In this document: positions 10,844-31,496 of the stretch, piece after piece | Layout of the letters: every line of letters begins with the position of its first letter | How positions within the stretch are numbered: the stretch's first letter is position 1 | Program-made: the position numbers and the translations under genes | NCBI GenBank assembly: GCA_902785855.1 | Contig: CADAAJ010000014.1 | Coordinates: forward strand, 1 to 44,164 | Source of the DNA: an uncultured Methanobrevibacter sp. | GTDB lineage: Archaea; Methanobacteriota; Methanobacteria; Methanobacteriales; Methanobacteriaceae | Length of the DNA stretch: 44,164 nt | Direction: 5' to 3' | The notes under the pieces: model-generated | The model's input: only the letters and a program-made list of their open reading frames with translations | The model's database searches: none | What the model was told of the DNA's origin: nothing

Positions 10844-11695
10844 ATGGTTAAATTAAACAAAGATGAATTCAATGAAAAGATTTTTAAAAGAATTAATAAA
10901 TTAATCGAAGATTATAAATTAATTAACGAAGGTGAATTAATAGCTATTGCATTATCTGGTGGTAAAGATAGTGTTTTAACATTACATGCTCTTAAAAATT
11001 ATCAAAATTATTTAAACTTTGATTTAGTAGCAATTAGTGTTGATGAAGGAATTGACGGATATAGACAACACGGTATTGATTCAGCTGTTAAAAATGCCAA
11101 GGATTTGGATATTGAATTAATTCAAAAATCTTTTAAAGATGAAGAAGGATTTAATTTAGATGATATTTATCATGAATTTAAAAGTGCATGTATTCCATGT
11201 GGAGTTTTTAGAAGAAATATTTTAAACAAAACTGCCTATGAAGTTGGGGCTTGTAAAATTGCCACTGGTCACAATCTTGATGATGAAATTCAATCTTTTT
11301 TAATGAGTTTTGCACGTGGAGATACAATAAAATTTTCTAAATTTGGTCCGGAACTTGATGTAATTCATCCGAAATTAATTCCAAGAATTAAACCATTATG
11401 GAATACTCCAGAAAAAGAAGTGGGTATGTGGGCGGTTTTAAACAATATTGATATTCATCTTGATGAATGTCCTTATTCTCATTTATCCCTGAGAGCAAAA
11501 ATTAAAGAATTTTTAAATGTTAGTGAAGACCGATATCCGGGTATAAAGAATAATGTAATGAAATCATTCAATCAAATTTTAACATTTGAAAATGATATTT
11601 CAACTAATCTTAATGAATGTGAACGATGTGGTGAACCTACTTCGTCACATATTTGTAAAGCCTGTGAGTTAAAAGAAGAGTTGGGTGTTGATTAA
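10844..11695 (+). CDS. tRNA 2-thiolation-type ATP pyrophosphatase (TtuA/Ncs6 family)
   Basis: PP-loop ATPase that adenylates tRNA uridine (position 34 or 54) for sulfur insertion. The PP-loop ALSGGKDSVLTLHAL is near residue 37, CIPCGVFRRNIL with paired cysteines near residue 122, and ATGHNLDDEIQSFLMSFARGD near residue 146. A C-terminal zinc ribbon CERCGEP...CKAC closes the protein. The N-terminal zinc ribbon present in many TtuA/Ncs6 proteins is absent, and an in-frame stop 15 nt upstream rules out a longer start. No ribosome binding site is seen; a TTTATTTAT element about 29 nt before the ATG suggests a leaderless mRNA. TtuA and Ncs6 subtypes cannot be separated here. Confidence 0.82.
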   Translation: MVKLNKDEFNEKIFKRINKLIEDYKLINEGELIAIALSGGKDSVLTLHALKNYQNYLNFDLVAISVDEGIDGYRQHGIDSAVKNAKDLDIELIQKSFKDEEGFNLDDIYHEFKSACIPCGVFRRNILNKTAYEVGACKIATGHNLDDEIQSFLMSFARGDTIKFSKFGPELDVIHPKLIPRIKPLWNTPEKEVGMWAVLNNIDIHLDECPYSHLSLRAKIKEFLNVSEDRYPGIKNNVMKSFNQILTFENDISTNLNECERCGEPTSSHICKACELKEELGVD

Positions 11696-11721
11696 GAGTA
11701 AAGATTTAAATCTTTACTCTT
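11694..11721. terminator. Perfect 28-bp palindrome, shared terminator of two convergent genes
   Basis: Bases 11694-11707 (AAGAGTAAAGATTT) are followed directly by their exact reverse complement to 11721. The palindrome contains the stop codons of both facing genes (TAA at 11693-11695 and, on the minus strand, at 11716-11714). It is symmetric, so it can form a hairpin in either transcript. No long U-tract follows on either strand, so termination efficiency is uncertain. Confidence 0.65.
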
Positions 11722-13549
11722 GCACTGTTGTTGATTTTCTAACTGTATTTGTAGAATATGTTGCTTGGTAATAAACTGTTTGTCCAACATTAAGTTTTTC
11801 AAGTTCTGATTTTTTAATTGTTACTTTTGCAATACCTTTTTTGTTTGTTTTTGCTTTGTATGTTTTTTCGTTAAATTTAAACTTAATTTTTTTGCCTTTT
11901 TGTAGTTGTTTATTTTTTTTCAATATTGCTTTTAATGTAATTTTTTTTGCTGATTTTTTAACTTTAACGGGTTGGAGTGATAATTTTGTAGTAGGTATTA
12001 CTTTAACAATGAATGTTTTTGAGTAAAAATCATCTTTTCCATAGTATAAAACTTTTATTAGATGTGTTCCAGGTTTTAACTTGGAAATAACTTTACTTAC
12101 TTTTTTCTTTGATAATGGCATATTTTTATAGTATTCATGGTCTATGTATATTCCAACTGTACCTTTATTTGGTTTTCCTTTGAAGTTTACAGTAATGCTC
12201 TGTCCATATTTAATTTTTTCATGATTAACATTTGCAGAATAACCTTTACTATTTTTTTTAACTTCAATATCCATTATTTCATCATTATAATCATCCATAA
12301 TATTAAAAAGTACATAACTGCTTGTGTAATTTCCTATTGTATATTCTATAAGACAGTGATGTCTTCCTTGGGATAATGATTTCAATGGTATACTTGCATG
12401 ACCATCTTTTATGGTAACTGTCAGAATTTCATCTTTTTTAGTAATGATTGGTCTTTCATCATCAAAAGTATAATCAGTAGTTACTTCATATAATGTTACA
12501 GTACCTGTTGTTCCTAGAGGTGCGGTTAGTATTATGTATTCTTTTTCACCAATTGACATAGAGTCGTCCCATCTTATTTTTGGAACAACTTCATAAGTAC
12601 GATTTATAACTTCATTTGGATATTTTGCATCAGAATATTCTGCAAAAACAGTGTATTTTCCAATTAAATTTTCAGTTGATATTTTTAACTGAGCTTTACC
12701 ATTAGAAACTGGAACATTATATTTTTTACCATTAAATGTATATATTACATTACCAGTTGCATCTTTTGGTAATAAAACAGTTAATGTTAAAGTTTTTGGC
12801 CATTCGACTTTATATTGAATCATATTAAACTCATATGTTGATTTAACTTTCTTTTCTAAAATATATGGTTTATCTGATCCTGTTTGATTATAAACAACTT
12901 TGATGTTATAATCTTTATATTCTCTTTTTAGATTTAGTTCACTCCATTTAATTGATTTAAAAAATTCATTTATAGTTTCATTGTAATATTTAATGTCATC
13001 CACATAAATTGTTATTTTCCCACTTATATTGCCGTGTATGGATATAATTTCAGATGAATCTTTTGTAATCATATTTTGTATTCTGATTTGGGGATATATA
13101 TTAACTGTTTTATTTTTAATAATTGAAGGATTTGTTCCATCAAAATATTTTACAGATAAATTATATGTTCCTACTCCTAATCTTGGAGTTAAATCATCTT
13201 TTTTAACAATATAACAAGGAGTTTTGTAATATTCCTCATCATATAATGAAGATATTTCTTTATTTAACAATTCAGTTTCTCCATTTGATACGCTAAGATT
13301 TCCTGATAATTTTTTATTATGTGAATCTATATGAACTATAGGTTCATTGTCATAGGTATTAACATCATGGAAATAAATTTCAATGTCTTCAGGTTCTTTA
13401 AGAGTATCTTCTTTTTGAACTTTTAAGGTTTCTTCAGGAATTGCAGTTTTTTGAAGAGGTTCTGTCTGGTCAACGTCTTCTGCTGCACTGACAATACCTA
13501 AAGCAAAAATAAATATTAAAAACATTGCTAATAGATATTTAAATTTCAT
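11714..13549 (-). CDS. Secreted adhesin-like protein with Ig-like repeats
   Basis: A 611-residue exported protein. Residues 1-22 (MKFKYLLAMFLIFIFALGIVSA) form a signal peptide with a basic start, hydrophobic core and AxA-like end. The rest is a series of beta-sandwich Ig-like modules with Asn/Thr-rich strands (GNISGKITIYVDD, TGTVTLYEV, KPNKGTVGIYID). The last 90 residues are lysine-rich (KGKKIKFKFNEKTYKAKTNKKG) and resemble the end module of Methanobrevibacter adhesin-like proteins. No C-terminal membrane segment or LPxTG motif is seen, so attachment may be through wall binding. A GGGAGGAAAAT ribosome binding site precedes the ATG. Which ligand it binds is unknown. Confidence 0.8.
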   Translation of the reverse strand: MKFKYLLAMFLIFIFALGIVSAAEDVDQTEPLQKTAIPEETLKVQKEDTLKEPEDIEIYFHDVNTYDNEPIVHIDSHNKKLSGNLSVSNGETELLNKEISSLYDEEYYKTPCYIVKKDDLTPRLGVGTYNLSVKYFDGTNPSIIKNKTVNIYPQIRIQNMITKDSSEIISIHGNISGKITIYVDDIKYYNETINEFFKSIKWSELNLKREYKDYNIKVVYNQTGSDKPYILEKKVKSTYEFNMIQYKVEWPKTLTLTVLLPKDATGNVIYTFNGKKYNVPVSNGKAQLKISTENLIGKYTVFAEYSDAKYPNEVINRTYEVVPKIRWDDSMSIGEKEYIILTAPLGTTGTVTLYEVTTDYTFDDERPIITKKDEILTVTIKDGHASIPLKSLSQGRHHCLIEYTIGNYTSSYVLFNIMDDYNDEIMDIEVKKNSKGYSANVNHEKIKYGQSITVNFKGKPNKGTVGIYIDHEYYKNMPLSKKKVSKVISKLKPGTHLIKVLYYGKDDFYSKTFIVKVIPTTKLSLQPVKVKKSAKKITLKAILKKNKQLQKGKKIKFKFNEKTYKAKTNKKGIAKVTIKKSELEKLNVGQTVYYQATYSTNTVRKSTTVQE

Positions 13550-13628
13550 TTTATTTTCCTCCCCTGTTTTTATATATTGTAATATTTATTTTTCATTATT
13601 TAATTATTTCTTTGGTATTTAATTTGTA

Positions 13629-13745
13629 ATGGTTATATATTGTGTATATCATATCATTGAACTAAATTCTATTCTAGAGGTTGCTTCAAGAGGTGGGGAT
13701 AGAAATGGAGTAGCTGGTCACATGCTTTATTTGGTTTTGAAATGA
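13629..13745 (+). other. Short ORF or gene remnant in a 310-nt intergenic region
   Basis: The 13550-13859 gap between the adhesin-like gene and the cation exchanger holds one 38-codon frame from ATG 13629 to TGA 13743-13745. Its second half (EVASRGGDRNGVAGHMLYL) is richer in G and C and looks more protein-like than the surrounding DNA. There is no convincing ribosome binding site. It may be the tail of a decayed gene or a chance ORF. Nothing else recognisable lies in the gap apart from the upstream sequence of the adhesin-like gene. Confidence 0.25.
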
Positions 13746-13859
13746 AACATCATTATTTTAAATATAAGAATATATGGATTAAAAATGTTCAAGTTTTAGT
13801 ATAAAATAAAATATGTTTTAGTGAAAATCATTGTATTTAATGGTTTCACTATTTTTTTT

Positions 13860-14804
13860 TTAATTTCTTAATATTGCAAATATCATATATGCGATAAATA
13901 ATGAAACTAATATAAATCCTTCTTTTTTATCAAATTTCTCTTGTGTTCTTGCGAAGACATAACATAATACTGTTACAAATATCATTAATGCAATATCAAC
14001 AATCATTGATTTTTGTAAGACTATTGGGCTTATTGTACTACTTGCTCCAAGTACAAATAAAATATTAAATATGTTTGATCCAATAACATTTCCTATAACT
14101 AACTCGTTTTCATCTCTTTTTAAAGCAGTAAGTGAAGTAACAAGTTCAGGTAAAGAGGTACCTATAGCAACAATAGTCAAACCTACTAATGTTTCACTCA
14201 TTCCAAGTGTTATTGCTATGGATGAAGCACTGTCAACTACAAAGTTTCCACCAAGAACAATTCCGATAAATCCAATAATAATATAAATTATACTTCTTAA
14301 AGGTGTTAATTTTGCTTCATCAACATATTGTGATTCAACTGATTTTCTTGCTGTATAAACAAGATATCCAACATATCCTATAACTAAAAGAAGTAATATA
14401 ATACCTTCGATTCTTGATATGTTCCAGTTTAATACAATAAATCCGGATAATAATATAGTTATTATCACTAAAAAAGGCAAATCTTTTTCAAGAAGTTTTC
14501 TTCCAATTTGTAATTCATTTAAAAATGCACATAAACCAATAATTAATAATATATTAAAAAGATTACTTCCAATTACATTACTGACAGCCATTGCATTATT
14601 TCCGGTCAGTGATGAGGTAATTGAAACTGCTGCTTCAGGAGCACTTGTTCCAAATGCTACAATTGTAAGTCCTACAATAATTGTGGGGATTTTTAAAATA
14701 GATGCAACACTACTTGCTCCATCAACAAAAAAGTCAGAACCTTTTATTAAAAATACAAATCCTGCTATCAATATAACAAATTGAATTAAAATTCCGGCAT
14801 CCAT
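13860..14804 (-). CDS. Na+/Ca2+ exchanger-type cation antiporter (CaCA superfamily)
   Basis: Integral membrane antiporter of 314 residues with about ten hydrophobic segments. The two alpha repeats are clear: GLTIVAFGTSAPE with SNVIGSNLFNI in the first half, and GLTIVAIGTSLPE with GNVIGSNIFNI in the second. These acidic and serine/asparagine residues form the ion sites. The family (YrbG-like) swaps sodium or protons for calcium across the cell membrane; the exact ions are not predictable. It begins 3 nt after the CorC-type gene, so the two are surely one transcript, pointing to shared work in cation balance. Confidence 0.9.
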   Translation of the reverse strand: MDAGILIQFVILIAGFVFLIKGSDFFVDGASSVASILKIPTIIVGLTIVAFGTSAPEAAVSITSSLTGNNAMAVSNVIGSNLFNILLIIGLCAFLNELQIGRKLLEKDLPFLVIITILLSGFIVLNWNISRIEGIILLLLVIGYVGYLVYTARKSVESQYVDEAKLTPLRSIIYIIIGFIGIVLGGNFVVDSASSIAITLGMSETLVGLTIVAIGTSLPELVTSLTALKRDENELVIGNVIGSNIFNILFVLGASSTISPIVLQKSMIVDIALMIFVTVLCYVFARTQEKFDKKEGFILVSLFIAYMIFAILRN

Positions 14805-19874: not shown

Positions 19875-19912
19875 TTCTTTTTTTAAATACTAATTTCAAC
19901 TTTGTATAAAAG

Positions 19913-19927
19913 GGGGATATAATCCCC
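19913..19927 (-). terminator. GC-rich hairpin terminator after the membrane glycosyltransferase gene
   Basis: GGGGAT at 19913-19918 and ATCCCC at 19922-19927 flank three bases. Read on the minus strand it lies just past the gene stop at 19933 and is followed by a CTTTTATAC stretch. Such a GC-rich stem is unusual in this AT-rich sequence. Confidence 0.6.
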
Positions 19928-19932
19928 AAGTG

Positions 19933-21456
19933 TTAATTTTCTGTGTTGTTGACTTCAGGTTCTTTAACTGTTAGCTTTGATATTTCAATTCCCTGATCAG
20001 ACAGCAAGGTAGTTTTATTGATTTGCGGACTCAAATTCAGGTCTCCCCAAGTCATAATATTGACTAAATAGAAATGCCTATTCGTATTGTTTATAACGAG
20101 GTTTGATATATCATTTTCCTGTATGTCCTTGAAATTGAATGTCTGATGTAGTTGTTTTGACGTTTTATTAAAGACATAAGTATATTTAATACAATATGTG
20201 TCCACTCTATCAGAATAATCTAGGAAATATATTTCTCCGTTTGGCCTTGCCAGAATAAGTGATGCATTTTCATCCTGTGTTATTTCATTGAATAGGTTTT
20301 CTTTAGCCATTCCTTCATTATACATTGTGATGTTGGAACTTATCATGTATCCTGTTCCTACAATCAGAAGTAGACATATAAGGGCAAATGTATATTTCAT
20401 TATCTTTTTATCTTCAATTTTATTTGTTAGAATTGAGATTGAAAGCCATAAAACCGCTGAAGCAGGAATTAAATATCGGGCAAGCAGTATAGATTTATAT
20501 GTAAGAGACACGACAAGAGCAAATACAATTGTTCCCACATAAACTCCAAGACCTGTTAGGAGATATAAGTTGTCCACATTGTATTTATCAGTTAGTTGCT
20601 TTTTATACATGTATATGATAGCAAGAAGTATCAAAATTGCAATACAGGCAAAGAAGATGTTATTACAATATGCATAGTATCCAAAGTCCTCTATAAGTGA
20701 TTGAATAGTAATTCTAGGGACCCAAAATCCTTGATGAATTGCATTCAATTGAGCAAAAAGAGTTAAAATCCAATAGGCATATAAAAGAACTCCAGCTACA
20801 ATAGAAATGCATAGATTTCTAATTTGGCTTCTGTTTTTAAAAATGACATACCATATTAAAATCAAAAACAGACATGCTGCAGAAATCGCTGCAAAATAAT
20901 GTGTATATGCGGCTAACACGGATGCAATGGTAACAATCACCCAGTATTTCAAGTCTCCTTTTGTATATATTTCCTTTGTATAGATGAAAGCTATAAGCAT
21001 AAAAAGGATTGCCCAACTATACATTCTTGCTATGAGGAAATAAAAGAAAAACTGACTCATTACGCCAAGTGAGAACATAAAAAGTCCTGTGGTCAGCCAT
21101 CCATACTCTTTTCTAATTTTAAAATAGGAAATGAGCATGATAATTGCATAGGGGATTATAGAAACTATTCTTACTGCATAGATGCTGTGAGGTGAGATCC
21201 CAAAAAAGCCAAAAACAGTCATTGCGAACTTAAGTATTAGATAATACAATGGCGGATGCACATCGGCTGCAGTAAGGCTTATCATTTCACCTACATCGAA
21301 ATTAATAAGTGTTAGTGTGAAATACTCGTCAACATGCAAAATAAGATGGTCAAGGGGTGTTATAAGCATGTAAATAAGTATTATAAAACTCGCTGTGAAA
21401 AAAAACTTTCCAATAATATCCTTATTTTTTCTGTCAAATTCAAAATTAATCCCCAT
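19933..21456 (-). CDS. Membrane glycosyltransferase, GT39/ArnT-like (GT-C fold)
   Basis: A 507-residue protein with about eleven hydrophobic segments. The first outer loop carries HVDEYFTL near residue 41, and DVHPPLYYLILKF near residue 66 is the motif of lipid-linked sugar transferases of the GT-C class. These use polyprenyl-phosphate sugars on the outer face of the membrane to modify glycans, lipids or proteins. The soluble C-terminal tail (from about residue 390) is typical. No ribosome binding site is visible; a TTTATTATA element about 28 nt before the ATG suggests a leaderless mRNA. It is the first of four envelope-glycan genes inserted between mmp7 and mmp10. Confidence 0.82.
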   Translation of the reverse strand: MGINFEFDRKNKDIIGKFFFTASFIILIYMLITPLDHLILHVDEYFTLTLINFDVGEMISLTAADVHPPLYYLILKFAMTVFGFFGISPHSIYAVRIVSIIPYAIIMLISYFKIRKEYGWLTTGLFMFSLGVMSQFFFYFLIARMYSWAILFMLIAFIYTKEIYTKGDLKYWVIVTIASVLAAYTHYFAAISAACLFLILIWYVIFKNRSQIRNLCISIVAGVLLYAYWILTLFAQLNAIHQGFWVPRITIQSLIEDFGYYAYCNNIFFACIAILILLAIIYMYKKQLTDKYNVDNLYLLTGLGVYVGTIVFALVVSLTYKSILLARYLIPASAVLWLSISILTNKIEDKKIMKYTFALICLLLIVGTGYMISSNITMYNEGMAKENLFNEITQDENASLILARPNGEIYFLDYSDRVDTYCIKYTYVFNKTSKQLHQTFNFKDIQENDISNLVINNTNRHFYLVNIMTWGDLNLSPQINKTTLLSDQGIEISKLTVKEPEVNNTEN

Positions 21457-21594
21457 AATATTACATTAAGCATAGAATATAATAAATGTTTTCTAAAGTT
21501 AATTTGTTGTTTTTTAAAAATAGGACTAATTGAATTTAAATTAATTGTTGAATAATACTTTAATAATTAAGCCTTTCTAAGATTAGTTGTTGTT

Positions 21595-22371
21595 TTACAG
21601 AATAGAATCTACAAACTCGCTGTATGTTATGAAAGCATGATTTTGATCTTTAAGCATCTGAATTAAATGGTCCAGTCTTTGAACCATCTTTTGTCCACTG
21701 TTTCTTCTTATTATAAATGGTATCTTAAATTCAGGATGATTATTTAACTCGTAGAACTCCCATGGGTGGAAATATGTGGTGAAATATTTGTCTTTTTTCA
21801 GGGTGCGGCGAACCATTTTATGGTAGATATTTTCAGGGAGATTATGTAGTGACAGCCAAAAGAGGGGGAATCTCATTGTTGGAGTTACTGAAGCAGGGAT
21901 TTGAACTACACCATCCTTTTTGAAATATGTTCTGGGAGTGTTCAGGTTCATATATCTTCCTGGAATGAAAGCAGGGTTAAGAGATGAGTTGTATGTATAT
22001 CCAATATTATGAATTTCACTATCCTTTACAGGAAACATCCTTGGCTGACGGTAGCCCTTTACTTTCGTATTGGTTATTTTTTCTAAAATTTCTTTTGATT
22101 TTGAAAGGTCACTTTCTTTAGGCTCAAAGTGGTCAACCCCATGTGATGCAATTTCATGTCCGTCGTTTAGTATTCTTTTCATTGTTTTTGGAGCATTTAT
22201 AGCAAAATTTGCTGTACAAAATAATGTTGCCTTAACATCATTTTTTTTAAGGATATCTAAAATAATGTTTGTTCCTTCAACAGACACTTTCATGCCTTTC
22301 TCAAGTGAATAGTCGACTCCATGCTCTCTTGGTACATCAAACTCTTCAATATCAAAACTTAACAGTATCAT
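21595..22371 (-). CDS. Polysaccharide deacetylase (NodB/CE4-like)
   Basis: A 258-residue hydrolase that removes acetyl groups from N-acetylated sugars with a metal. The first motif is LLSFDIEEFDVP at residues 3-14 (Asp as base), the second HGVDHFEP near residue 79 (metal-binding histidines), and the third GYRQPRMFP near residue 107. The C-terminal TTYFHPWEFYELN near residue 195 carries the last histidine. This arrangement resembles the DUF3473-associated polysaccharide deacetylases involved in surface glycans. No signal peptide is present, so it acts inside the cell or on lipid-linked sugars. AAGGGAAATA before the ATG gives a moderate ribosome binding site. Divergent from the GT2 gene. Confidence 0.85.
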   Translation of the reverse strand: MILLSFDIEEFDVPREHGVDYSLEKGMKVSVEGTNIILDILKKNDVKATLFCTANFAINAPKTMKRILNDGHEIASHGVDHFEPKESDLSKSKEILEKITNTKVKGYRQPRMFPVKDSEIHNIGYTYNSSLNPAFIPGRYMNLNTPRTYFKKDGVVQIPASVTPTMRFPLFWLSLHNLPENIYHKMVRRTLKKDKYFTTYFHPWEFYELNNHPEFKIPFIIRRNSGQKMVQRLDHLIQMLKDQNHAFITYSEFVDSIL

Positions 22372-22539
22372 TATTTCCCTTTTTTCAAACCAAATATCTA
22401 TAATTTTTAATCATTGAATAAATTTAAGTTAAAATATCTTATCAAAATCAAAGTATAAAAATTTATTCCGAAAAGTCTTGTTGTCAAAATCAGAATATTA
22501 TTAAAAATTATTTATACCAACAATGATAAAAATTTTAAC

Positions 22540-23466
22540 ATGGAATTGTTGAGTATTATTGTACCGTGTTATAATGAAGAGAAAACTGTTGAAATGTTTT
22601 TTGATGAACTTCGAAAGACATTAGTTGGCATTAATTATGAAGTTTTGTTTATAAACGATGGTTCTCAAGATAGTACTCTTGAAAAATTAAGGGAATTGGC
22701 TGATTCAAATTTAAATGTTAAATATATTTCATTTTCAAGAAATTTTGGAAAGGAATCTGCAATTTATGCAGGTTTGACTATGGCTACAGGTGATTTGGTT
22801 GGTCTCATGGATGCGGACCTTCAGCATCCTCCAAACCTTCTACCAAAAATGATCGAAGCAATCAATGAAGGTTATGATGTTGCAGCTGCAAAAAGGGTTT
22901 CAAAAAAAGGTGAACCTATAATAAATTCATTGGGATCCAAATTATTTTATAAGGTGTTTAATTCTATTTCAAGTGTAAAACTTGTGCCTGGAGCAACAGA
23001 CTATCGTGTGATGACACGTCAAGTAACTGATGCTGTGATGCGATTGAATGAATACAACAGATTTTCAAAGGGACTTTTCCAATGGGTAGGATTTGAAACT
23101 AAATGGATTGAATATGAAAACATCCAAAGGTTTGCAGGAGAGAGCACATGGTCAGTTGGAGACCTCACCAGATATTCTATTCGGGCCATTGTTGCATTTA
23201 CAACACTTCCTCTCTCAATTTCAATAGTTCTGGGATTCATAATTTCAGCACTTGCATTCATTTATCTTCTGTTTATTATAGTGAAATATATATTATATTC
23301 AGATCCTGTTCAGGGTTTTGCAACAACAATGTGTGTAATACTGTTTTTGGGAGGTATGCAAATGATTTTAATCGGAATATTAGGCAAGTATCTGGAAAAC
23401 ACATACAATGAAACAAAGAATCGTCCAATTTTTATTATTAAGGAGACAAATATTGATGATAAATGA
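22540..23466 (+). CDS. GT2 glycosyltransferase, dolichol/undecaprenyl-phosphate sugar synthase type
   Basis: A 308-residue enzyme that loads a sugar on polyprenyl phosphate. The GT-A domain shows SIIVPCYNEEKTVEMFFDEL near residue 5, FINDGSQDSTLE near residue 41, and the metal/nucleotide-binding DADLQHPP near residue 92. Two membrane segments (about residues 230-250 and 265-285) anchor the C-terminus, as in GtrB and PglC-like relatives. The ATG has no ribosome binding site but a TTTATA box 27 nt ahead, fitting a leaderless mRNA. It overlaps the GtrA-like gene by 11 nt; the pair is the normal GtrB-GtrA arrangement, where GtrA probably flips the lipid-linked sugar. Confidence 0.88.
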   Translation: MELLSIIVPCYNEEKTVEMFFDELRKTLVGINYEVLFINDGSQDSTLEKLRELADSNLNVKYISFSRNFGKESAIYAGLTMATGDLVGLMDADLQHPPNLLPKMIEAINEGYDVAAAKRVSKKGEPIINSLGSKLFYKVFNSISSVKLVPGATDYRVMTRQVTDAVMRLNEYNRFSKGLFQWVGFETKWIEYENIQRFAGESTWSVGDLTRYSIRAIVAFTTLPLSISIVLGFIISALAFIYLLFIIVKYILYSDPVQGFATTMCVILFLGGMQMILIGILGKYLENTYNETKNRPIFIIKETNIDDK

Positions 23467-23851
23467 TTGGATAAAGTTGGATAGAGAACTGATATTGTAT
23501 GTAGTTTTTGGAGCATTTACATTTTTTGTAAATCTCATAAGCTATTTTTTCTTTGCGAATCTAATAGGTATTAATTATTTAGTTTCAAATGCTATAGCAT
23601 GGTTTTTATCAGTGCTTTTTGCATATATAACCAATCGGAGATGGGTGTTTGAAAGCAGGAGTCCGAATATTTTAAAGGAAATGTCTCTCTTTTTTGGAGG
23701 TAGGATATTTTCCGGTGTTGTAGACATGTTTTTGATGTATGCTTTCATTGATCTTCTTGTATTTGACAGTTCAATATCAAAAATCGTTGTTCAAATCATT
23801 GTGATAGTTTTAAACTATATATTCTCAAAACTGATTGTCTTTAAAAAATAG
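23456..23851 (+). CDS. GtrA-like membrane protein
   Basis: A 131-residue protein with four hydrophobic segments and the GtrA pattern: a first helix starting ELILYVVFGAFTFFVNLISYFFF, then AWFLSVLFAYITNRRWVF near residue 55, and a closing NYIFSKLIVFKK. GtrA proteins are thought to flip polyprenyl-phosphate-linked sugars across the membrane. The ATG at 23456 lies 10 nt after AAGGAG and within the end of the GT2 gene, so translation is coupled. The sugar would then feed the GT-C enzyme or a similar transferase. Confidence 0.88.
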   Translation: MINDWIKLDRELILYVVFGAFTFFVNLISYFFFANLIGINYLVSNAIAWFLSVLFAYITNRRWVFESRSPNILKEMSLFFGGRIFSGVVDMFLMYAFIDLLVFDSSISKIVVQIIVIVLNYIFSKLIVFKK

Positions 23852-23936
23852 GTCAACAAAAATTCATTTAATAGACTTTTTTGCTAACAACAAAATCAAA
23901 AAAATAAAAATAGGGTAATTAATATTGGATATTCGC

Positions 23937-25193
23937 TTAAATTTTAGAAGGTTTTAATTTCATTCCAAAGAAATTAATTGCATCCACTAAATCGTTAAAA
24001 TCTTCTAATTCTCTTTCTATAACGTTTTCATCAGTCATATCAATACTTAATTCTCCATCAACAGTTAAAGTATCTGGGCCACGACCAATTACTCTTTCAA
24101 TACCATCTGCACATAAAATTCTTTCTGCATCAAGCTGATGGATAAATGATCTGCCTGGTATAATTACAGATTCTTTCAATTGATTTAAATCAATATTTTC
24201 CAAATCTTCTTTTGTAATTAAACAGGCTATTTCTTTTTCAACACCTATAACATTAACACTGTCAACTTCTAGTTTTTTAAATATTTTAGAAATATATGGT
24301 TCAGCTATTTTTGATGTGATGATTGTTGCTTCACCGGTTACAGGTTTTATAAACTGTAGGAATACTTCATTTTCATCTTTAGCTATTGCAAATGGTCCGC
24401 CAGTTTCCGGATCACATAGTGGTGTTCCACTTACTCTAAAATTATACTCTGAATTAATTTGTTTTACTAATTCAGCAAAATCTTCTACTGGTTGTGATTC
24501 TATTCCTTTTATTATAGGTTCATTACCTAATATCAGACCTTCATTGAATGTATTTGCAAATCTCATTAAAAGCATTCCTTTTGCACCCCATTCTTCTAGA
24601 TTATCACAGGTTTGCCTTAAAACATCTCCATCATTAACTCCAGGAATTATTACAGTAGCACCTGTTAAATCAATATTTTCACAGAATATTTTACATGCTT
24701 TAAGTGCTTCTTCAGGATTTTTATCTTTTACCCATTCTTTTCTAAGTTGTGGGTCTGATGAAAAAACAGTAAATGATACTTCTTTAACACCATTATTAAT
24801 TAATCTTGCAGCCACATCTGAATCGCTTATTCCTTTTCCACTTGTGTATCCAAGTATTGATGAAATTGAAAATTGATTTAGATTATCAGTTAATGTTTCT
24901 AAGTGTGGATAACAACTTATATCTCCTCCTCCACTGATATATGCACTTATTTCACCCTGTGCTTGATTCATCATTAAAGCGGTTTGTATCTGGTTTATTA
25001 CTTCAAAAGGAGATTTAAATTCGCTTTGTGTTTCAGATATGCCTTTACTGCACCTTTCACAACCAATTTTATTTGGTAAACAATGTGCACATCCGAAACT
25101 TTTAATTTCTTTTACCTTTCTAAAATAACAGTATTTACAAAAACCGTTACAATCTTTTCCAGGTATTCCTCCCACATCAGCTACAAGTTGCAT
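23937..25193 (-). CDS. mmp10: Methanogenesis marker protein 10 (Mmp10), Mcr arginine C-methyltransferase
   Basis: Radical SAM and cobalamin-dependent enzyme that installs 5-C-methylarginine in the alpha subunit of methyl-coenzyme M reductase. The iron-sulfur motif CNGFCKYC is at residues 15-22 and a further cysteine set (GCAHC...GCERC) lies near residues 34-48. GAVIIPGVNDGD-type and TPLCDPETGGPFAIA segments (near residue 280) are family features. Length 418 is normal. It is divergent from mcrB across a 484-nt gap. No ribosome binding site is seen; TTTATAAATAAA about 29 nt ahead of the ATG suggests a leaderless mRNA. Its substrate loop in McrA is missing from this sequence (see mcrA). Confidence 0.92.
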   Translation of the reverse strand: MQLVADVGGIPGKDCNGFCKYCYFRKVKEIKSFGCAHCLPNKIGCERCSKGISETQSEFKSPFEVINQIQTALMMNQAQGEISAYISGGGDISCYPHLETLTDNLNQFSISSILGYTSGKGISDSDVAARLINNGVKEVSFTVFSSDPQLRKEWVKDKNPEEALKACKIFCENIDLTGATVIIPGVNDGDVLRQTCDNLEEWGAKGMLLMRFANTFNEGLILGNEPIIKGIESQPVEDFAELVKQINSEYNFRVSGTPLCDPETGGPFAIAKDENEVFLQFIKPVTGEATIITSKIAEPYISKIFKKLEVDSVNVIGVEKEIACLITKEDLENIDLNQLKESVIIPGRSFIHQLDAERILCADGIERVIGRGPDTLTVDGELSIDMTDENVIERELEDFNDLVDAINFFGMKLKPSKI

Positions 25194-25677: not shown

Positions 25678-26960
<1,283 letters not shown>

Positions 26961-26995: not shown

Positions 26996-27451
26996 ATGGA
27001 TATTGAGATATTTCCTTATAGGGTTCTTGGAAGTGACACAACAGAAAAGTTGTTAAATGACTTAGAATCTATTGAAGATGTAAGAAGGACTGTTATTCAT
27101 GGTCCAAGATTTCCAAAAACAGAAGAAACTTTACCTCCTCAATATAGGGAACGTAGAGTAATTAATGTTAATGGTGAAGATGTTGTCCTACAAGTTAAAA
27201 CTGGTAGAATTTTCGTTGAATTAACATTAGAATCAACTATTAAGGAAATTGAAGAAATCTGTAATAAACATATTCCATATGGTTTTGATATTAATCAAGA
27301 TAGAACAAATTATATTAGAAAAGAACAAACTGTTTCTGATAGAATTAAATATGGGGATATGGATTTACCAGATAATTTAGTTGGAATGACTGATCAATAT
27401 TCTAGTTTTGAAGACCATGTGAAAATTATTAGAAAGGATGACTTTGATTAA
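26996..27451 (+). CDS. mcrD: Methyl-coenzyme M reductase operon protein D
   Basis: A 151-residue small protein conserved in mcr operons. It is not part of the mature enzyme; it associates with Mcr during assembly. The start [22 protein letters not shown], the [22 protein letters not shown] segment near residue 36 and the C-terminal [19 protein letters not shown] are as expected. A GAAGGTAGAAAC leader precedes the ATG. It begins 35 nt after mcrB and ends one base before mcrC. Its codons are T-ending and lack the strong bias seen in mcrB, mcrG and mcrA, consistent with lower output. Confidence 0.93.
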
Positions 27452-27452
27452 T

Positions 27453-28052
27453 ATGATAGGACGTTGCACTCACGTAGTAGATTGTAGGGAAACAAGCGGT
27501 ATGGGAAAAGGTGGAAGTTTAGCTCAAAGAGGTACTTTCGCTGAATGTGGTACTGATGTTTGTGCAGTTGCTATGTCTCCTGGACGTAGGCACATTACTA
27601 AACCTGTTTGTGAAATTACTTTTGGATTACGTGAAGCTAATGTTTTAACAAGTACTATGGTTTTAAATGCTGGTGCTGGTGTTCCTCATGATGCTCCTGC
27701 TTCTGGTGGTACTTTGTTTGGACTTACTGATAAGGAAGTTGAACAAATGCGTAATTTTAAATTACTTGTTATTCACCTAGGAGGAGTTGCAAATCATATT
27801 ATTTACAAAGCAAGATTAATTCTAAGGAATGTCAATAAACACTGTATTATTATATGTGAATCACCAGTTGATTGTGAAGATTTTGCTAAAATTGGAGTAA
27901 AAACTTCCAAGGTCATGCCAACTGAAGGTAATGTTAAAACTGAAGGAACTATCGATGATATTGTTACAGGTGTTATCCGTGGTGAAACAATTTCACAGGA
28001 AAAATTAGATGAAATTATTAGAAAAGTTAAATTAGCATTAGGAGATGCATAA
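27453..28052 (+). CDS. mcrC: Methyl-coenzyme M reductase operon protein C
   Basis: A 199-residue protein that, from published work, belongs to the complex activating methyl-coenzyme M reductase. Diagnostic points are [32 protein letters not shown] at the start, [23 protein letters not shown] near residue 43 and [15 protein letters not shown] near residue 75. The ATG at 27453 follows one base after the mcrD stop, so translation is coupled; the upstream in-frame start at 27438 lies inside mcrD and is not conserved. mcrG starts 2 nt after its stop. As with mcrD, its codon use is unoptimised. Confidence 0.94.
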
Positions 28053-28054
28053 TT

Positions 28055-28813
28055 ATGGCACAAATTTATCCAGGTACTTCTCAGGTTGCTCAAAATAGAA
28101 GAAACTTTTGTGACCCAGACTATGAGTTAGAAAAGTTAAGAGAAATCTCTGATGAAGACGTAGTAAAAATATTAGGTCACAGAGCTCCAGGTGAAGAATA
28201 TAAATCAGTTCACCCACCATTAGATGAAATGGATGAGCCTGACGACATTGTAAGAGAATTAGTAACCCCTATTGATGGTGCAAAAGCTGGGGACAGGATT
28301 AGATACATTCAATTCGTAGACTCTATGTACTTTGCTCCTGCTCAACCTTACTTAAGAGCAAGATCTTACTTATGCAGATGGAGAGGAATTGATACTGGTA
28401 CTTTATCCGGAAGACAAGTTATCGAAGCAAGAGAAAGAGATATCGAAAGATTATCCAAAATCCTCTTAGAAACTGAATACTTCGATACCGCAAGAACCGG
28501 TATTAGAGGTGCAGGTGTACACGGTCACTCTTTAAGATTAGACGAAAACGGTTTAATGTTTGATATGCTCAGAAGACAAGTATTCAACAAAGATACCGGT
28601 AAAGTTGAAATGGTAAGAGACCAAATTGGTGTTGACTTAGATGAACCTGTAGTCTTAGGTGAACCATTAGACGAAGAAACATTAAAAGCAAAAACCACTA
28701 TTTACAGAATAGATGGTGAAGCATACAAAGATGATAAAGAAGCTGTTGAAGTATTACATAATATTCACGTTTCCAGATCCTTTGGTGCATTTGATCCAAA
28801 CGCAGGATGGTAA
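28055..28813 (+). CDS. mcrG: Methyl-coenzyme M reductase gamma subunit
   Basis: Gamma subunit of the hexameric enzyme, cytoplasmic. The 252-residue protein is full length. Conserved stretches are [33 protein letters not shown] at the start, [18 protein letters not shown] near residue 38, [20 protein letters not shown] near residue 85, and [13 protein letters not shown] near residue 150. The ribosome binding site AGGAGAT lies inside the end of mcrC. Codons are strongly C-ending. Unlike mcrB and mcrA, no gap is seen. mcrA starts 5 nt after its stop. Confidence 0.96.
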
Positions 28814-28818
28814 TTAAC

Positions 28819-30428
28819 ATGGCTGATAAAAAATTCTTAGATGCAATGAAAAAGAAATTCAGTGAAGATCCAACTGAAAAAAGTACCCAATTTTATAACA
28901 TGGGTGGTTGGAGACAATCTGAAAGAAAAACTGCATTTGTAAATGAAGGTAAAGAAATCGCTAAGAAAAGAGGAATCCCAATGTACAATCCTGACATTGG
29001 TACTCCTTTAGGTCAAAGAGCTTTAATGTCTTACCAATTATCTACTACTGATACTTTTGTAGAAGGTGACGATTTACACTTTATTAACAACGCAGCTATC
29101 CAACAAGCTTGGGATGACATTAGAAGAACTGTTATTGTAGGTTTAAACACTGCTCACAACGTTCTTGAAAAAAGATTAGGTATTGAAGTAACTCCTGAAA
29201 CTATTACCAATTACCTAGAAACTGTAAACCACGCTATGCCTGGTGCAGCAGTTGTTCAAGAACACATGGTAGAAACTGACCCATTAGTAGTACAAGACTC
29301 ATATGTAAAAGTCTTTACTGGTGATGACGAATTAGCTGACGAAATTGACTCAGCATTTGTTTTAGACATTAACAAAGAGTTCCCTGAAGAACAAGCTGAA
29401 GCTTTAAAAGCTGAAGTAGGTGGAGCTGTATGGCAAGCTGTAAGAATTCCTTCCATTGTAGGAAGAGTTTGTGATGGTGGTACTACCTCCAGATGGTCTG
29501 CTATGCAAATCGGTATGTCAATGATTTCTGCATACAACCAATGTGCTGGTGAAGGAGCTACTGGTGACTTCGCATACGCATCCAAACACGCAGAAGTTAT
29601 TCACATGGGTACTTACTTATCGGATTCATGGCAGATATCTGTCAAGCTTCCAGAGTTAACCCTGACGATCCAGTTAAAACCACTTTAGAAGTAGTAGCTT
29701 TAGGTGCTGCTTTATACGACCAAATTTGGTTAGGTTCTTACATGTCTGGTGGTGTAGGATTCACTCAATATGCTACTGCAGCATATACTGATAACGTATT
29801 AGATGACTTTACTTACTATGGTAAAGATTACGTAGAAGACAAATACGGAGACTTATGTTCCGCACCTAACAACATGGATACTGTTTTAGATGTTGGTACT
29901 GAAGTTGCTTTCTACGCATTAGATCAATACGAAGAATACCCAGCTTTACTTGAAACTCACTTCGGTGGATCTCAAAGAGCTTCCGTTATTTCCGCTGCAG
30001 CAGGTGCTTCCACTGCATTTGCTACTGGTAATGCACAAACTGGTTTAAGCGCATGGTACTTAGCTATGTACTTACACAAAGAACAACATTCCAGATTAGG
30101 ATTCTACGGTTACGATTTACAAGATCAATGTGGTGCTGCTAACGTATTCTCCATCAGAAATGATGAAGGTTTACCACTCGAAATGAGAGGACCAAACTAC
30201 CCTAACTACGCAATGAACGTAGGTCACCAAGGTGAATACGCTGGTATTGCACAAGCTCCTCACGCTGCTCGTGGAGATGCTTGGGCTTTCAACCCATTAA
30301 TCAAAATCGCATTTGCTGATAAAAACTTAGTATTCGACTTCAGTAAAGTTCGTTCTGAATTTGCTAAAGGTGCATTAAGAGAATTCGAACCTGCTGGTGA
30401 AAGAACTGCTATTACTCCAGCAAAATAG
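28819..30428 (+). CDS. mcrA: Methyl-coenzyme M reductase alpha subunit, disrupted by a 46-nt gap
   Basis: Catalytic alpha subunit. Codons 1-267 are intact to HMGTYL; the frame is then wrong and runs on to a stop at 29686-29688. From 29622 another frame encodes [12 protein letters not shown] and the complete remainder, including the [13 protein letters not shown] segment, the GGSQ methyl-Gln site and GYDLQDQC with the thioglycine and methyl-Cys positions. The missing family segment is 16 residues (PVRRARGENEPGGVPF-like) at 268-283. Adding 46 nt restores the frame and gives 551 residues. The lost loop holds Arg270 and the methylated Arg271 of the M. marburgensis enzyme. The start is ATG 28819, not 28807, which lies inside mcrG. 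An assembly error is most likely. Confidence 0.94.
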
Positions 30429-30662: not shown

Positions 30663-31496
30663 ATGGACCCTGTAACATTAGGTGTAGTTGCATTAATGGG
30701 TGCAGTTGAAAGTAACCCTAACTCTCAAGTTCAACTTGCTCCACAAATGGGACATTTACACCGTATGATAAACAAGGCGGCTTCTGGTGAACCAGTCGCT
30801 TATGGTGTTTGGTGTGGTGTTGCTGGTGCTATTGCATATTTAGCAATCACTTTAGGTGTTATGCCTATCGTAGCTATTGCAATGGGTGCTTGTGTCGCTG
30901 CTTTTGTTCACGCTATTTATACTGTTACATCCCACATGGGAAGGATTGTTGGACAATCACAATTCGAACAACCATTGTTCATGGATGTATTGACTCAGTC
31001 TTTAGGACCTATTGTAGGTCACGGATTTATAACTAGTTTCTGTATTGTTGGAATTTCATACTTAATGACTATTCCTATTAACTTTGGCGAGCCTTTACAC
31101 GTATTCCCAATTCCACTTTTAGCAATGCTTTGGGGTATTGCTCTTGGTTCTATTGGATCTGCAACTGGGGACGTTCATTATGGTGCTGAAAGTGAGTATC
31201 AGAAATTCGAATTTGGTGGAGGTACCCCTGTAGCTATTCAAGGGGATATTGTTACTAAAGCTCCATTAGGTGCTAAAAACTCTATGGATGTAGTAAACTT
31301 CTGTGCTAAATTTGGTGGACCATTAACTGGTTTTTGTTTCGGTCTCGTTGTATTCTTTAGTTTCTGGAATACAGTAGTATTTGGAATATATGGTGGTATT
31401 GTTGTAGGTATTTTAATTATCATCTTATTAGTTATTCTTAATGATAGATTAGAAGTATTTGCAAGAAACCAATATGGACCATATGAGGAAGATTAA
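30663..31496 (+). CDS. mtrE: Tetrahydromethanopterin S-methyltransferase subunit E (possibly shortened)
   Basis: Membrane subunit of the sodium-pumping methyltransferase. Six or more hydrophobic segments are seen; conserved stretches are NPNSQVQLAPQMGHLHR near residue 18, SATGDVHYGAESEYQ near residue 165, and NRxEVFARN-type end. The 277 residues are about 18 fewer than I recall for the family. The N-terminus reads MDPVTLGVVALMGAV directly before ESNPNSQ, whereas relatives have an AATIAGAAEDLESD-type stretch between them. The reading frame is intact. It may be a third small gap like those in mcrB and mcrA, or true variation. GGAGG precedes the ATG. Confidence 0.93.
   Translation: MDPVTLGVVALMGAVESNPNSQVQLAPQMGHLHRMINKAASGEPVAYGVWCGVAGAIAYLAITLGVMPIVAIAMGACVAAFVHAIYTVTSHMGRIVGQSQFEQPLFMDVLTQSLGPIVGHGFITSFCIVGISYLMTIPINFGEPLHVFPIPLLAMLWGIALGSIGSATGDVHYGAESEYQKFEFGGGTPVAIQGDIVTKAPLGAKNSMDVVNFCAKFGGPLTGFCFGLVVFFSFWNTVVFGIYGGIVVGILIIILLVILNDRLEVFARNQYGPYEED

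Follow-up and report, generated by a model that had tools for sequence, protein, structure and literature searches.

The closest described counterparts of the gene analysed here are the McrA proteins of Methanobrevibacter and its relatives (TIGR03256; PDB codes 5a8k and 1mro). Arg271 is methylated in the enzyme from M. marburgensis, and a passage of PMC7581889 attributes this modification to Mmp10. For Methanosarcina acetivorans, a passage of PMC8070964 describes the methylarginine as dispensable for catalysis; this bears on the methyl group and says nothing of the loop itself. The DNA analysed here (the window) is a stretch of 44,164 nt from an uncultured Methanobrevibacter sp., and it agrees with these systems in its flanks, in the order of the operon and in the adjacent mmp10, however, its assembled letters are without 46 nt that hold the Arg270/Arg271 loop.

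Mis-joins and collapsed-repeat deletions are a kind of error that occurs when drafts are built from mixed short reads. The window resembles them in that the losses fall in conserved genes and in that its operon is also the place where sister assemblies break, and differs from them in that none of its three joins bears an N. A further comparison is offered by the damaged mcrA genes of the rumen Methanobrevibacter records RUG11657 (locus L072) and RUG11990 (locus L053), where there is likewise an internal loss in an otherwise good mcrA, but the losses differ from that in the window in size (156 nt in frame and ~83 nt out of frame, respectively) and in their positions in mcrA.

The first mcrA frame of the window opens with the ATG at 28819 and reads to codon 267 (...HMGTYL), beyond which the letters are out of frame until a stop is reached at 29688. 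The open frame of the second half extends from the ATG at 29628 (MADIC) through 30428. In place of the one open frame above the TIGR03256 cut-off that is expected of a functional McrA, the two frames match separate parts of this NCBIfam model of 548 positions (Table 1) with 489.6 and 515.2 bits, each alone below the curated cut-off of 767.75. Alignment with G013, a complete genome and the nearest at mcrA among 60 relatives searched (92% identity), and with the relative G008 gives a gap of exactly 46 nt after base 29619. The intact McrA of G013 has 551 amino acids and aligns without gaps to PDB entry 5a8k up to residue 309, and the lost segment, which reads PVRRARAENELGGVPF in the genus Methanobrevibacter, therefore holds Arg270 and Arg271. 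The loop with Arg270 and the methylated Arg271, a further mark of functional McrA, is thus absent, and two other marks are present, i.e., the location in mcrBDCGA beside mmp10 and purifying selection. The original prediction, made from the letters of the window, had described the same architecture, and its reading of the frames, the 46 missing nucleotides, the two arginines of the lost loop and the length of 551 residues for the reconstructed protein are all borne out by the open frames and by the comparison with G013, G008 and 5a8k.

Table 1 Features of the mcr region in the window (coordinates are positions in the window)
Feature	Coordinates	Strand	Model or basis
mmp10, intact; its enzyme methylates the arginine of the missing loop	23937..25193	-	TIGR03278, 582 bits, cut-off 350
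mcrB up to its own junction; frame stops at 26826	25681..26820	+	TIGR03257 positions 1-378 of 433
mcrB junction, 49 nt of G013/G008 absent, frameshift near the C-terminus	26820..26821	+	alignment
mcrD, mcrC, mcrG open frames	26996..28813	+	above curated cut-offs (TIGR03260, TIGR03264, TIGR03259)
mcrA first part, codons 1-267, in frame	28819..29619	+	TIGR03256 positions 1-266
mcrA junction, 46 nt (PVRRARAENELGGVPF loop with Arg270/Arg271) absent relative to relatives	29619..29620	+	
mcrA second part, other frame	29620..30428	+	TIGR03256 positions 284-548
mtrE frame, 277 aa, in-frame loss near the start	30663..31496	+	TIGR01113, above cut-off; match from residue 16, profile position 27
mtrE junction, 48 nt of G013/G008 absent, in frame	30708..30709	+	alignment

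It had also been claimed that no other defect is present. This holds inside mcrA and fails for the neighbours, where mcrB and mtrE carry lesions of the same kind. The losses from mcrB (49 nt), mcrA (46 nt) and mtrE (48 nt) all lie within 4 kb, and a single mcrA event can hardly account for three losses of 46–49 nt so close together. Elsewhere in the window, positions 11677–13860 and 19888–23959 give no alignment of at least 300 nt when compared with G013 and G008 in their syntenic regions, and these two stretches may be lineage-specific insertions.

The loop motif is present in 70 of 70 rows from relatives that span the mcrA site, a set that includes MrtA paralogues and some genomes entered twice and that corresponds to 65 distinct aligned sequences; it was derived from 112 tested loci, of which 97 aligned and 73 spanned the site, three of the latter being the loopless window itself. 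The exact mcrA junction, with at most two mismatches allowed, is found in one of 67 genomes of the genus, which is the window's own. A search pattern for the loop, which overlooks some true loops (e.g., that of G019), is present in 25 of these 67 genomes and has no match anywhere in the draft genome that contains the window (G000; 137 contigs, 95.3% complete, 2,155,436 bases). A second intact mcrA or mrtA, the search for which had been proposed with the original prediction, was not found in this draft; a single match to the McrA N-domain and a single match to the C-domain are both located in the window. The mcrA junction has no match in the viral contigs searched, which says little.

For both parts of mcrA, dN/dS relative to five relatives is 0.04–0.15, within the range of intact relatives (0.03–0.24 for G013 compared with the other four), and a search for internal stops in both parts found none. 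As judged from these substitutions, mcrA appears to be free of decay or relaxed selection. An old pseudogene, which had been regarded as unlikely from the outset, is ruled out by these values together with the lack of internal stops.

The sequence around the mcrA junction is shared among relatives to an unusual extent: over a 76-nt segment that covers the junction, 36% of the pairs of relatives have identical letters, a value above that of 99.6% of the 5,713 segments of the region. By the same measure the mcrB and mtrE junctions are at percentiles 86 and 96. When mean identity is used instead, the percentiles for 76 nt are 97 for mcrA, 93 for mcrB and 64 for mtrE (48 for mtrE over 46 nt). The argument from sharing is thus strong at the mcrA junction, and at those of mcrB and mtrE it is moderate or weak.

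The draft was compared with G013 over 714,623 of its bases, the window included, and ~2.06 of the 2.54 Mb of G013, of which 328,693 nt aligned under the filters applied. In this aligned sequence there are only three deletions of at least 40 nt with clean flanks, and all three are in the window. Clean deletions of 18–39 nt number five (39, 34, 31, 22 and 19 nt), and there is one insertion of 22 nt. The 39- and 31-nt deletions each fall where a long frame has its stop codon, i.e., at a gene end, the 34-nt deletion is inside a stop-to-stop frame of 99 amino acids, and the 22-nt deletion is under no frame longer than 47 amino acids. The 19-nt deletion removes part of the anticodon region of tRNA-Val(GAC) on contig C9 (L136:8378-8430), and ARAGORN detects this tRNA in G013 and leaves it undetected in the G000 stretch. 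A search of the whole draft retrieves only nucleotides 1–33 and 52–72 of tRNA-Val(GAC), and a full-length copy is present in five of five other genomes. Lesions like that in mcrA are thus observed at further conserved loci of the same assembly, namely mcrB, mtrE and tRNA-Val. Contig C66 of the draft contains an extra stretch that is 84% identical to tRNA-Val, and counterparts of this stretch exist in the other genomes.

Other assemblies of the genus break at the mcr operon. The McrA domain PF02249 is detected in 31 of the 67 genomes (22 of the 37 good ones), in some of them apparently via an Mrt-like copy alone (e.g., G015), and mmp10, which is located ~0.5 kb upstream of mcrB, is above its cut-off in 61 of the 67. 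The 36 genomes in which PF02249 was not found include five rated 99–100% complete (G006, G036, G066, G067 and G070). Among these 36, mmp10 is full and in a scorable orientation in 20, on the opposite strand and unscorable in 11, and not above the cut-off in five. In all 20 scorable genomes (21 matches) only 82–4,323 nt separate mmp10 from the contig start upstream of it, which is short of the end of mcrA (~5,348 nt by the spacing in the window); the contig thus starts inside or just before mcr.

Among 80 named loci, 69 have an mcrA frame of at least 544 amino acids, 10 have a frame that runs to the end of the available DNA, and one (L053) is short. Other internal mcrA deletions are present in two of the 80. 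In RUG11657, whose locus L072 is one of the 10 with a frame that runs to the end of the DNA, the in-frame loss (L072:3629-3630) is joined at ATGGGTACTTACTTA, where the same conserved block has its left edge, and in RUG11990 the loss shifts the frame (L053:4041). In G076 the loop pattern follows 22 nt after the start of a contig, and this start would be at the same block edge as the join in L072 if its letters are as in the relatives. The gap rule returned no clean deletion of at least 18 nt in 137,822 aligned nucleotides of 24 named loci, a count that the losses in L072 and L053 escaped by the splitting of their alignments; such losses are therefore not common.

On the circumstantial evidence available, the loss in mcrA is best explained by contig ends that were wrongly joined across conserved segments of the draft, a reading to which we assign a probability of about 95%. 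Other conserved genes of the same draft have similar missing pieces, and the mcrA loss is therefore assigned to the assembly. The missing active-site piece is almost certainly an error of genome assembly and not biology; most likely, the mcrBDCGA operon of the living cells is ordinary and intact. The original prediction had treated the loss as a property of the gene; this does not survive the losses in mcrB, mtrE and the tRNA and the breaks of sister assemblies at mcr, which point to a property of the assembly. The draft is probably a MAG. Related species hold long identical mcr stretches in common, such stretches are collapsed in short-read graphs, with contigs ending slightly inside them, and the contig ends would then have been joined with omission of the unresolved middle; here we infer that the sample contained related strains, and also the exact step at which the assembler failed.

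Several more specific arguments and causes were considered and discarded. Runs of N in other stretches of the draft (4, 61, 13 and 43) were dropped as proof of scaffolding, since masking also gives N; the distance in G013 is ~144 nt across the run of 61 and ~47 nt across the run of 43. Deletion driven by microhomology is rejected because the three window junctions have no shared end base, by reading of the alignment; the tRNA-Val junction shares one base and the L053 junction about four. A cause that fixes the size of the loss, as could be imagined for 46, 48 and 49 nt, is countered by the 19 nt of the tRNA, the ~83 nt of L053 and the 156 nt of L072.

Within mcrA alone, a real and very recent deletion would look identical. 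A young pseudogene of this kind, in a strain that is no longer methanogenic or is dying out, is in agreement with the single junction, the otherwise clean gene and the finding of no second McrA in the draft, however, it requires separate deletions in mcrB, mtrE and the tRNA, and the mcr genes show no relaxed selection. To our knowledge there is, moreover, no replacement for MCR in hydrogenotrophic methanogens, and we regard such a pseudogene as very unlikely. Should the lineage nevertheless be real, with mcrB and mcrA freshly disrupted and with mmp10 and the other mcr/mtr genes kept, it would represent a methanogen that is losing methanogenesis, which we hold to be more improbable still.

That the contig runs through mcr, where the scorable McrA-less sister assemblies break, would fit a mixture of strains from which a minority deletion variant was assembled instead of the intact majority, but a single variant must then carry all the lesions together, and the occurrence of the junction in just one of the 67 genomes also speaks against a mixture, the chance of which we place below that of a lineage in the course of losing the pathway. 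Least probable of all, to the point of being negligible, is a short MCR that functions without the Arg270/Arg271 loop by means of frameshifting. Both halves of mcrA do look as if they are under purifying selection, and the loss in mtrE is in frame, however, mcrB is frameshifted as well, with loss of its C-terminus, mmp10 is intact although its target is the lost loop, and every site-spanning row from the relatives retains that loop.

The finding is ordinary in its cause, and the loopless mcrA almost certainly does not exist in the organism itself. It is useful as a caution against inferring metabolism from the mcrA of such a draft; surveys that trust the presence or intactness of mcrA there would count too few methanogens or report active-site variants that do not exist.
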